Shown: positions 20,357 through 23,763 of the stretch, in pieces
Layout: each line of letters opens with the position of its first letter
How positions within the stretch are numbered: position 1 is the first letter of the stretch
Source: Arcobacter sp.
GTDB lineage: Bacteria > Campylobacterota > Campylobacteria > Campylobacterales > Arcobacteraceae
NCBI GenBank assembly: GCA_002869535.1
Contig: PKUK01000001.1
Location: 186,001-250,000 of the forward strand
Direction: 5' to 3'
DNA: 64,000 nucleotides
Position numbers and translations under genes: made by a program
The notes under the pieces: model-generated
What the model was told of the DNA's origin: nothing
Seen by the model: the letters and a program-made list of their open reading frames with translations, nothing else
The model's database searches: none

Positions 20357-21778
20357 TTATGGTGGAGGTCGAGTACCTTCTATAGCTTTAAATAAACCAC
20401 TTCCTTTTATTACACCATCTTCAAAGTCAAATTTTCCACCTATAGCTTTTATAGAACCTTCTCCATAAAATGAACCATTTACATTTCCAGTTATACTGTT
20501 AGAATTATGAGTTAAATCAGATGAAGAGAAACCTGATGAATTTACTACTCCATTATTTCCAATATCTATGCCATAAGTAATAGTTTGTTGAGAATTATTA
20601 GTATATATTAAGTTCATACTTCCTGTAAAAGAGCCACTTCCTCCACCAAAATCAAATGCAAAATCTACTTCACTTGAATTAAGTATTGAGTACTTATGTG
20701 TGCCATCATATATATTTCCATGTATAACGTTACCATAAAAATTTACTGTATCATTTAACCCATTAATTACGCTATCTACAATACTTTTTGCAGTTTTTGT
20801 TCCTGCAATCCATCCTCCACTATTTCCATTCTTTGACCATTCTCCCCATACTAAATAATTACTATCAGTAAGCTGATCATAAAAATAATCTTCATTACTT
20901 AGTGTTGCATTAGTAATATCATTATCAAAAATCTTCATTTTTAAAGAACTACTCGTTATAGAAGTTGAAGAGCTATCAAAATCATTCATTCCGATCTCAC
21001 CATTTTTAAATGATTCAAAATCTTCATTACTATCGTAAATTATTGTATTTACATATCCTAGAGTACTAAAATTAGATAAAGTAGAATGCTCTTTTTTAAT
21101 AGGAGAAGTAGTAGGAATATCTGGTTTTGGAGGATTACTAGGTGGAGCATCATCTATAACCTTCGGCGCTTCAGGAGGAGTATTGTCATTATTTCCTCCA
21201 CCATCTTGTTGTTCTATATTATCTAAAGTATCTTGTTTTAAAGGTTCAGGAGGAGTTGTAGCTTCTCCTTGTGGAGTTCTAGTAAGCTCTTGTTTTTCAA
21301 CGTTTACCGTAACTCCATTAGCAGTAACACTAATAGCTCCATCAGTACAAGCAATAATTCTTTGATTACCAATAATAGTAGTTCCCCTAATACCAATAGA
21401 AGCAGATTTTGTTTTCAGTTTAAATCTCTCTTTATTTATCTTTCCAATTTTCCCAGTAATAGATTTAAATGAACCTTTCATAAAACCTATGTCTGCTTTA
21501 GAATCATTTGGTTTAGTTTCATCATAGGCATAATCAAAGATATTTAAAGTTGAATTTTGTCCAATAGTAATAATAGTGTTATCATCAAGTGTAACTTGAG
21601 CTTTAGAAGCTTTAGCAGAGTTTATTACATCATTTTTTTCTAGCTTTTCTCCAAGCTTTGCTAAGATAGTATTAGAATCTCTAGAGATTTTAACATCACC
21701 AACTAAGGCTGTTATTTGTCCTACACTAGCAAATAAGAAATTTGTTAGAATAAAAAGTAATAATAGTATTTTTTTCAT
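20357..21778 (-). CDS. FecR-domain protein with TbpB-like beta-barrel C-terminus; candidate secreted cargo
   Basis: 473 residues. A cleavable signal peptide (LLLLFILTNFLFA) has no lipobox cysteine, so it is not a lipoprotein. A FecR-type domain follows (about 25-165): VGDVKISRDSNTILAKLGE, TIGQNSTLNIFDYAY, and RFKLKTKSASIGIRGTTI. A proline-rich, acidic linker covers about 165-230. The C-terminal part (about 235-473) is rich in Gly, Ser and Asn and shows YSILNSSEVDFAFDFGGG and GNVNGSFYGEGSIKAIGGKF, the pattern of TbpB-like eight-stranded barrels (usually GNVNGxFYGPxAxExGGxF). It follows the Slam-like gene by 9 bases and must be co-expressed. The FecR domain is confident, the TbpB likeness moderate. 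Confidence 0.75.
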   Translation of the reverse strand: MKKILLLLFILTNFLFASVGQITALVGDVKISRDSNTILAKLGEKLEKNDVINSAKASKAQVTLDDNTIITIGQNSTLNIFDYAYDETKPNDSKADIGFMKGSFKSITGKIGKINKERFKLKTKSASIGIRGTTIIGNQRIIACTDGAISVTANGVTVNVEKQELTRTPQGEATTPPEPLKQDTLDNIEQQDGGGNNDNTPPEAPKVIDDAPPSNPPKPDIPTTSPIKKEHSTLSNFSTLGYVNTIIYDSNEDFESFKNGEIGMNDFDSSSTSITSSSLKMKIFDNDITNATLSNEDYFYDQLTDSNYLVWGEWSKNGNSGGWIAGTKTAKSIVDSVINGLNDTVNFYGNVIHGNIYDGTHKYSILNSSEVDFAFDFGGGSGSFTGSMNLIYTNNSQQTITYGIDIGNNGVVNSSGFSSSDLTHNSNSITGNVNGSFYGEGSIKAIGGKFDFEDGVIKGSGLFKAIEGTRPPP

Positions 21779-21787
21779 GTTAAATCC

Positions 21788-23101
21788 TTAGAATGTATAA
21801 ATCAATGAAGATTTTATAACATGTTTTTTATAGTCAAAAGGCGCTTGATTTGATATATTGTTTGTAGCTGTTCCCTTTAGTGCAAATATTAAGTTTTTTC
21901 TTAATGGTCTTGTAATACCTAAAGCAAAAGTGTTTATCTTGTCAACTCTTCTTGATAAGAAGTTAACATCTGTGTCTGTATAAATTACTTTTTTACTACC
22001 AAGTGTTGTAGTTAGATTAAGTTTATATGGAAGAGCTAAACTATTTTCTAAGCTTAGTTCATATGTTTCTTTACTTACATCTGTTCTTTGTTCATATATT
22101 TCTAACTCTTTAATATATGAAGTATTTAAAGTAAAAAGTCCATAATTTTCTGTTTTATATTTTAAAGCATCAATAAAATTAAATGCATAGGCATTTTTTT
22201 CTTTATCTGTTACTTGGTCAAAAAGTTTTTTACTTATTTTAAGAGTAATATCATTTAAAGTTGTTTGAGTAAAGATATGAGAATTTGAAAGGATTAGATT
22301 ATAGCTTTTTAAATAAGCTTTGTCATTATATCTTACATAATCCATTCCTATTCCAGTACTATATTTATTTGCTCCCTTATAAAAAGTTGGAGTAGAAGAG
22401 AAAGATATAACATCAATATTACTATCTTTTTTTGTATCGTAATCTTGAGTATAAATGACAAGGTTATTATTTAAAGAGAACTCTTCATCATATTTGTAAA
22501 CGTGGTTTATAATAGCAATCGCATCATAAGTATAATCAGACTCTTCTTTTGCACTATTTGATAAAGTCACTGTTCCTAATTGTGGTGTAAAGACTGAATA
22601 ATCACCTGGTGTTGCAGAGTTATTTGCATTTGAATCATAGCTCAAATCAAATACTAAAGCCCCGTTTATAAAGTGTTTTTGCATAGTTCGTTTTATGTAA
22701 GCTAGTCTTGCTTCAATACTCTTTCTTACATCTGCTGGAGTATTTGCATTTACTAAAACAGTGTTAAAGTCTTTTATAGCTTGTGCATAGTTTTTTAGCA
22801 TAAGATTACTTTGTGCTACTTCAACTTTAACTCGTGAATTATTTGGTTCAACAAAAAGAATTCTTTCATAATAACTGATAGCTAAATCATATTCACCTTG
22901 TTCATAAGCACTTCTTCCAAGATAAAAATTTAGAGTTTGATTTCCTAAATCACTCTTTGAAAGAGAATGAAATATCTCATAGGCATCTTTATAGTTCTTC
23001 TCTTTGAATAATTTAATTGCTTGATCATAAGAGGTAAATGTTTCATTTGCCAATAAAAGGCTTGTAATAATTGATGTTGAAAGTAATATTTTTTTAATCA
23101 T
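21788..23101 (-). CDS. TPR plus outer-membrane beta-barrel protein, Slam-like (DUF560)
   Basis: 437 residues. A signal peptide (ILLSTSIITSLLLA) leads into TPR repeats (about 25-145) with YDQAIKLFKEKNYKDAYEIF, FYLGRSAYEQGEYDLAISYY and a third repeat. From about 155 the chain is built of alternating amphipathic strands, opens with FDLSYDSNANN, and ends in SSLIYTF with a terminal aromatic, as outer-membrane barrels do. Periplasmic TPRs joined to a barrel is the architecture of Slam (type XI secretion) proteins. The adjacent gene encodes a protein with a TbpB-like barrel, the usual Slam client fold. Sequence identity to known Slams could not be tested. It is the first gene of a two-gene operon. 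Confidence 0.75.
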   Translation of the reverse strand: MIKKILLSTSIITSLLLANETFTSYDQAIKLFKEKNYKDAYEIFHSLSKSDLGNQTLNFYLGRSAYEQGEYDLAISYYERILFVEPNNSRVKVEVAQSNLMLKNYAQAIKDFNTVLVNANTPADVRKSIEARLAYIKRTMQKHFINGALVFDLSYDSNANNSATPGDYSVFTPQLGTVTLSNSAKEESDYTYDAIAIINHVYKYDEEFSLNNNLVIYTQDYDTKKDSNIDVISFSSTPTFYKGANKYSTGIGMDYVRYNDKAYLKSYNLILSNSHIFTQTTLNDITLKISKKLFDQVTDKEKNAYAFNFIDALKYKTENYGLFTLNTSYIKELEIYEQRTDVSKETYELSLENSLALPYKLNLTTTLGSKKVIYTDTDVNFLSRRVDKINTFALGITRPLRKNLIFALKGTATNNISNQAPFDYKKHVIKSSLIYTF

Positions 23102-23301: not shown

Positions 23302-23763
23302 ATGGATTCACCCCAAAAGAAAACACCTACTGCAATGGATAAATTACTTTTATTAAAGAGTCGTATACCTTTTTTCTCAGGCTTAAGTAATCAAAATATT
23401 GTAGAGTTTATTGAAAATGTTAGGATAGTACAGTTTAAGCCAAATGAAATAATATTTGAAGAGGGTGGCATTTTAAATAAAGATATATATTACTTACTTT
23501 CGGGTAGTTTAGATATTTTAAAAAAAGATGAACATACTAATAGAGAAAAAAAAATAACAACTATTGAAAGACAAACTCTTTTTGGTGAGATGAGAGCAGT
23601 TACCAATAAACCAAGAAGTACTACAGTAAAAACATCAAATGATGGTGCTTTGGTTATTATCTTTAATCTAAAAGTAACTCAAGATTCAGGTAAAGCATTA
23701 TTTTATAAAAATATAATAGATGAACTATCTAAAAAAATTGTTGCAATGAATGAGATGAGTTAA
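23302..23763 (+). CDS. Cyclic nucleotide-binding domain protein
   Basis: 153 residues consisting almost entirely of one cNMP-binding beta-roll: KSRIPFFSGLSNQNIVEFIE, FKPNEIIFEEGG, YYLLSGSLDILKK, GEMRAVTNKPRSTTVKT. The phosphate-binding cassette is GEMRAVTNKPRST rather than the canonical GELALxxxxPRxAT, so ligand binding may differ. There is no DNA-binding helix-turn-helix and no membrane segment, so it is not a Crp-type regulator. The ATG is preceded by CAGGAATTAAT. It is a single gene, convergent with the efflux operon. Confidence 0.82.
   Translation: MDSPQKKTPTAMDKLLLLKSRIPFFSGLSNQNIVEFIENVRIVQFKPNEIIFEEGGILNKDIYYLLSGSLDILKKDEHTNREKKITTIERQTLFGEMRAVTNKPRSTTVKTSNDGALVIIFNLKVTQDSGKALFYKNIIDELSKKIVAMNEMS

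Follow-up and report, generated by a model that had tools for sequence, protein, structure and literature searches.

A Slam-Like Exporter and Its FecR-Domain Client May Form the Outer Half of a cAMP-Controlling Sensor in Campylobacterota

Introduction

The type XI secretion system (T11SS), or Slam family (DUF560, SlipAM), is known from exporters of TbpB, HpuA, and hemophilin cargo (PMC8406197, PMC9090332, and PMC12282271); the terms FecR, Campylobacter, and Arcobacter are absent from the main texts of PMC8406197 and PMC12282271. A separate study of Campylobacterota, published in 2022, described a cluster containing a CHASE2 adenylate cyclase, a phosphodiesterase (PDE), a FecR protein, and a TPR protein and proposed that these act in one signaling pathway (PMC9239204). 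In Sinorhizobium meliloti, the outer-membrane barrel NsrA is needed for signaling from outside through a CHASE2 cyclase, which sets a precedent, backed by experiment, for input from an outer-membrane barrel to CHASE2 cyclases (PMC7529298 and PMC13001267). Here, a gene pair from an Arcobacter sp. was analyzed within a 64,000-nucleotide stretch of contig PKUK01000001.1 (referred to as the window). About a hundred related loci were compared with it, and the comparison suggests that the two genes encode the outer half of a cAMP-controlling sensor rather than simple secreted cargo.

Results

The two open reading frames lie on the minus strand, separated by 10 nt. The upstream gene (21788..23101) encodes a Slam-like (T11SS-family) outer-membrane protein of 437 amino acids, and the downstream gene (20357..21778) encodes its FecR- and TbpB-like client of 473 amino acids. 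Both reading frames and their architectures, including the TPRs and a barrel terminating in phenylalanine, are as first proposed in a preliminary description made from the sequence. The upstream protein contains a periplasmic TPR region (amino acids 24–140; 22682..23032, minus strand; Pfam TPR_16, 7.9e-13), followed by a predicted 14-strand β-barrel ending in F437 (amino acids 143–437; 21791..22675, minus strand). An AlphaFold2 model built with an alignment of relatives (pLDDT 92) has helices at 24–140, 14 long strands at 143–436, and two additional short strands in a loop.

The preliminary description would have been undermined by a barrel lacking resemblance to Slam in profile searches, and that resemblance was found transitively, through relatives. 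The window protein itself has no SlipAM match in the Pfam scan, and it aligns with TPR_Slam at 5.9e-6 and 27.1 bits, under the cutoff of 35.2 bits. It matches the barrel protein of locus L077 over its full length (1e-40), and the L077 protein matches SlipAM above the Pfam cutoff (1e-8; 240 of 288 positions), as does the barrel of L118 from Campylobacter gastrosuis (over 274 positions). Among 38 barrel relatives, 33 match TPR_Slam and 10 match SlipAM (E up to 0.1). In fold comparisons against the PDB, the best match is BcsC, another TPR-barrel export channel; porins were also recovered, and no Slam structure is among the matches listed. PDB sequence searches with the pair gave generic TPR matches and one insignificant match. 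Three features of a T11SS outer-membrane protein are present: N-terminal periplasmic TPRs, a SlipAM-type barrel (via homologues), and an adjacent cargo gene. By homology, the barrel protein would carry its client through the outer membrane. Some Slam-like barrels (L086, L087, L088, L102, and others) have an extra ~100 amino acids at the N terminus, and 5 of the 38 barrels contain matches to the peptidoglycan-binding Pfam SPOR domain.

The client begins with a Sec signal peptide of SPI type (amino acids 1–17; 21728..21778, minus strand; NFLFA|SVG, called by inspection). It is followed by a FecR domain (amino acids 18–167; 21278..21727, minus strand), which matches PF04773 over amino acids 50–141 (E 4.9e-11). 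A Pro-rich disordered linker and variable middle (amino acids 168–308; 20855..21277, minus strand) leads to the TbpB-like C-terminal domain (amino acids 309–467; 20378..20854, minus strand). The AlphaFold2 model, also built with an alignment of relatives, has an overall pLDDT of 78, with values near 90 for the C-terminal barrel and for most of the FecR domain and below 50 at amino acids 193–239 of the linker. An eight-strand barrel is predicted at about amino acids 344–467 (pLDDT ~90), so the proposal of a TbpB-type barrel survives structure prediction. The signal peptide, FecR-type domain, proline linker, barrel motif, and missing lipobox claimed in the preliminary description were likewise all borne out; the lipobox is absent from the window client and from all 70 distinct FecR-client relatives. 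The client has the C-terminal eight-strand TbpB-like barrel and the Sec signal that characterize T11SS cargo.

Foldseek matched the tail to the TbpB C-lobe (5kkx; E 6e-7), with NHBA and factor H binding protein lower in the list. The window client has no TbpB_B_D match in Pfam, but its amino acids 305–466 match the tail of the L077 client (1.3e-7), whose genome locus (G079) matches TbpB_B_D (4e-8). L077 therefore provides a single link through which both members of the pair connect to Slam and TbpB. Among 36 client relatives, 18 match TbpB_B_D and 18 match the NCBI slam_lipo model; the resemblance to TbpB is attested independently by Pfam, NCBIfam, and Foldseek but not by E-values from a C-terminal HMM, because that HMM was built from the clients themselves, including the window client. 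Alignment of the relatives revealed an FYG...GG-x-F signature in the C-terminal barrel, GNVNGSFYGEGSIKAIGGKF in the window client (amino acids 431–450; 20429..20488, minus strand). Chance is excluded as an explanation, because dozens of genomes share both the motif and the architecture.

The preliminary description also called for a search for the same pair in related genomes, and the pairing of exporter and client does recur: a Slam-like gene adjoins 76 of 84 rows with a FecR domain and C-terminal barrel, and four of the remaining eight are at contig ends. These rows contain duplicate records (some contigs appear twice under two names), making the 104 distinct loci a safer denominator for neighbors. 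Related contigs were retrieved by a FecR peptide pattern, so the set favors FecR clients and is silent on T11SS clients without FecR. Of 100 genomes, 54 have FecR relatives and 61 have barrel relatives, the second figure including weak TPR-only matches; named genomes with relatives belong to Arcobacteraceae, Sulfurimonas, Sulfurospirillum, Sulfurovum, Campylobacter gastrosuis, and two Thiomicrospira. No match to the client was found in the viral contigs searched. Given the recurrent pairing, the profile matches of relatives, and the TbpB C-lobe fold, the pairing of exporter and client is well supported, and the two proteins are very probably a T11SS-family exporter and its own dedicated client.

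The 70 distinct clients range from 368 to 2991 amino acids and are ordered from FecR at the N terminus to the barrel at the C terminus. The longest (L068:3397-12372) is encoded with several 21-bp repeats, as for heptad (coiled-coil) segments, and the L126 client from C. gastrosuis has a long, charged, coiled-coil-like middle. Two cysteine-rich clients are unlike the rest (L082:3528-6293, with 30 cysteines, and L180:5989-8328, with 15). Client, barrel, and CHASE2 genes also occur together in Thiomicrospira (Gammaproteobacteria; L133 and L161), where CHASE2 is nested among Campylobacterota sequences in the tree, suggesting horizontal transfer.

The client could be plain T11SS cargo that is moved in its entirety to the surface or released, with FecR serving as the N-terminal handle, as in soluble hemophilin-type cargo. 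The order of Sec signal, handle, and C-terminal TbpB barrel with no lipobox is that of the TbpBBDsol class (PMC8406197), and both the pairing with an exporter and the greatly varying length of the client middles agree with this reading. The preliminary description had similarly envisaged a secreted or surface FecR module as a new cargo class. That placement is not supported by three observations on the FecR domain. First, in a clade of 12–13 Slam-like barrels, the neighboring FecR protein lacks a TbpB-like tail, and CHASE2 is present at most of the loci; because the tail is missing, the role of these barrels cannot be export of a TbpB-like tail. Second, L193 (895-2334) has a lipobox, a Pal/OmpA peptidoglycan-binding domain (7.2e-14) in the place of FecR, and then a TbpB-type tail, with a Slam-like gene adjoining. 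Third, FecR is the best conserved part of the client: identity to the closest relatives of the window pair is 85–86% for FecR, 78–80% for the barrel protein, 44–69% for the client C-terminal domain, and 34–59% for the linker and variable middle (within the genus and to L066). Genome G001 has two client paralogues, which share 93% identity over FecR and 48% over the tail. Together, the Pal/OmpA substitution, the tail-less loci, and the conservation argue for a periplasmic FecR domain, short of proof, and export of the whole client as plain cargo is doubtful. We put the chance that FecR acts as a periplasmic transducer signaling to CHASE2 at about even or slightly better. The tail-less FecR proteins beside Slam-like barrels and CHASE2 (L164, L168, L169, L170, L173, L175, and L177) contain 213–305 amino acids, and a D-I-T-Q-like motif is common to the ends of several.

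In Foldseek searches, the client FecR domain matched FecR-type anti-sigma periplasmic domains (4m0h and 6ovk) and, over part of its length, the adhesin "cell surface anchoring domain" 5ix9 (TMt 0.74, rmsd 1.2, and 62 columns). The latter match, made with the predicted model, fits FecR acting as a tether. It is also what would be expected of a T11SS-exported surface adhesin held by an N-terminal periplasmic plug in the style of LapA-type RTX proteins, with no part in signaling; 30 of 36 clients have weak retention_LapA matches, very long clients have 21-bp (heptad-length) repeats, and one client has Big_9, Cadherin_5, and Ig_like_ice matches. However, the LapG cleavage pattern ([TPASG]AAG after the retention module) was found in 0 of 70 clients, the window client has no adhesin repeats in Pfam, and linkage to CHASE2 cyclases and PDE would be unexplained. 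We therefore regard a retained adhesin as unlikely. LapG-type release was dropped from consideration on the same motif count, even though the window's genome has LapG-family (Peptidase_C93) genes away from the pair, at G000:C5:427147 and G000:C4:95224 (L205 and L206). A reading of the long clients as chiefly Ig-repeat adhesins was rejected as well, with no such repeats detected by Pfam in several of them.

A single cysteine is present in the mature protein of 53 of 70 clients, nearly always at the same FecR site. In the window client, this is Cys144 (21347..21349, minus strand), in a column occupied by cysteine in 87% of TbpB-tailed clients and in 93% of FecR proteins that adjoin a Slam-like gene and have no detected tail. 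The residue is found in the context I-x-C-T-x-G-x-I at the end of the FecR domain and is the lone cysteine even in a 2991-amino-acid client. A disulfide joining this residue to CHASE2 or the barrel was considered and rejected, since neither the CHASE2 proteins nor the barrels have a conserved cysteine; the residue may instead serve in a homodimer or in some other role.

A CHASE2 gene is located near the pair in 53 of the 104 distinct loci, a lower bound because some loci end at contig edges. All five CHASE2 neighbors read by Pfam combine CHASE2 with Guanylate_cyc; for the others, the name cyclase is by homology, as Pfam was applied to these five. Another recurrent neighbor is a cAMP phosphodiesterase-like protein with PDEase_II, GAF, and HD domains. 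Among the 100 genomes, CHASE2 is present in 53 of 54 with FecR and in 6 of 46 without (Fisher p 2.5e-20, an optimistic value because the genomes are related). Forty-two of 76 listed CHASE2 genes are within 9 kb of a FecR match; for a gene chosen at random, the expectation is about 1%. In L198:2992-3959, L199:2465-3327, L200:2474-3483, L201:2776-3635, and L202:2316-3283, the FecR domain is split over two overlapping reading frames: the first stops exactly at ...IG(L/I)RG, and the second begins in a 4-nt overlap and has its own signal peptide and the remainder of the domain. This looks like a natural two-piece FecR, and each of the five genomes has a CHASE2 gene next to it.

In the window's own genome, the pair is not linked to CHASE2, as is also the case in G001 and G002 from the same genus. 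The genome encodes two CHASE2 cyclases, one adjoining a small FecR-like protein (identified as FecR by inspection) and the other without a FecR neighbor. In a tree of 61 proteins, the latter falls among the CHASE2 proteins linked to FecR and TbpB-like clients, beside those of L067 and L068 (fork support 90/90), and this unlinked gene at G000:C9:139423 is the likely cyclase partner. A PDE homologue is present elsewhere in the genome. A divergent cyclic-nucleotide-binding protein of 153 amino acids adjoins the pair (23302..23763, plus strand; PF00027, 2.4e-12) and is a possible part of the pathway. A cluster of flanking genes from four loci includes one window gene and a member from L111 that also matches cNMP_binding.

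Discussion

These results point to a Slam-like exporter and dedicated client that may act as a trans-envelope sensor rather than as a source of free cargo, a reading to which we give roughly even chances. Based on their sequences, both proteins would be taken across the inner membrane by Sec. By analogy with its Slam homologues, the 14-strand TPR barrel would then recognize the TbpB-like barrel of the client and move the tail, with the stretch preceding it, to the surface. The folded N-terminal FecR domain may be held in the periplasm, leaving the client tethered without a lipid. There, FecR could touch an inner-membrane adenylate cyclase at its periplasmic CHASE2 domain, and surface binding or the state of export would in this way set the cAMP level, with the phosphodiesterase and cyclic-nucleotide-binding proteins completing the pathway; these later steps draw on gene linkage and co-occurrence. 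Counting against this reading are the separation of pair and cyclase in the window's genome and in G001 and G002, the clade of Slam-like barrels beside tail-less FecR proteins, the lack of direct SlipAM and TbpB_B_D matches for the window proteins, and the fold match of the barrel protein to BcsC with no Slam structure among the matches listed. We propose more tentatively that a Slam-family exporter has been co-opted as a trans-outer-membrane receptor, in which the tail is exported, FecR is periplasmic, and the CHASE2 cyclase reads either the bound state or the completion of export. If true, the co-opted exporter would convert a step of secretion into a signal carried by cAMP.

The barrel might instead be the receptor itself, with a wholly periplasmic FecR client that signals to CHASE2 in the manner of NsrA or FecA. 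Such an arrangement agrees with the NsrA precedent and with the clade in which FecR-only proteins accompany these barrels and cyclases, but an export-type T11SS tail preceded by long variable stretches is hard to explain without export, and we find a receptor of this kind quite unlikely. In the work on NsrA and CyaK/CyaD1/D2 (PMC7529298), the proposed sensor is formed by the loops of the barrel itself, and a separate exported client is not described.

The proposed trans-envelope sensor shares features with several other known systems. The four gene kinds of the Campylobacterota cluster in PMC9239204 are also those of the related loci here; a CHASE2 gene lies near the pair in 53 of the 104 distinct loci but is unlinked in the window's genome. 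Slam is not mentioned in that study, nor is the FecR protein presented there as a client of T11SS type bearing a TbpB-like barrel. What seems to be new is the identification of the TPR protein as a Slam-family barrel and of the FecR protein as its client; the open-licence literature was searched, and earlier notice elsewhere is possible. In FecA-FecR-FecI surface signaling, a periplasmic FecR-type domain also joins the outer to the inner membrane. Here, however, the client has a Sec signal, the short hydrophobic signal peptide leads directly into FecR strands with no transmembrane helix and cytoplasmic anti-sigma domain, and the proposed output is a cyclase. A Burkholderia operon pairs a LysM-FecR protein, with its peptidoglycan-binding domain, with CHASE2 (PMC5192318), but the CHASE2 protein there is a histidine kinase instead of a cyclase and no barrel is described. 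The retention module of LapA-type RTX adhesins has an N-terminal fold resembling part of FecR and offers a possible plug, whereas the client here ends in a TbpB-like barrel, is not type 1 secreted or RTX, and lacks a LapG-like site. T11SS/Slam is alike in its TPR and SlipAM-type barrel and in its adjacent client with a Sec signal and C-terminal TbpB-type eight-strand barrel; the pair differs in the FecR N-terminal module of its client, the absence of a lipid anchor, its Campylobacterota host, and the linkage of related loci to CHASE2 cyclases rather than to TonB or haem uptake.
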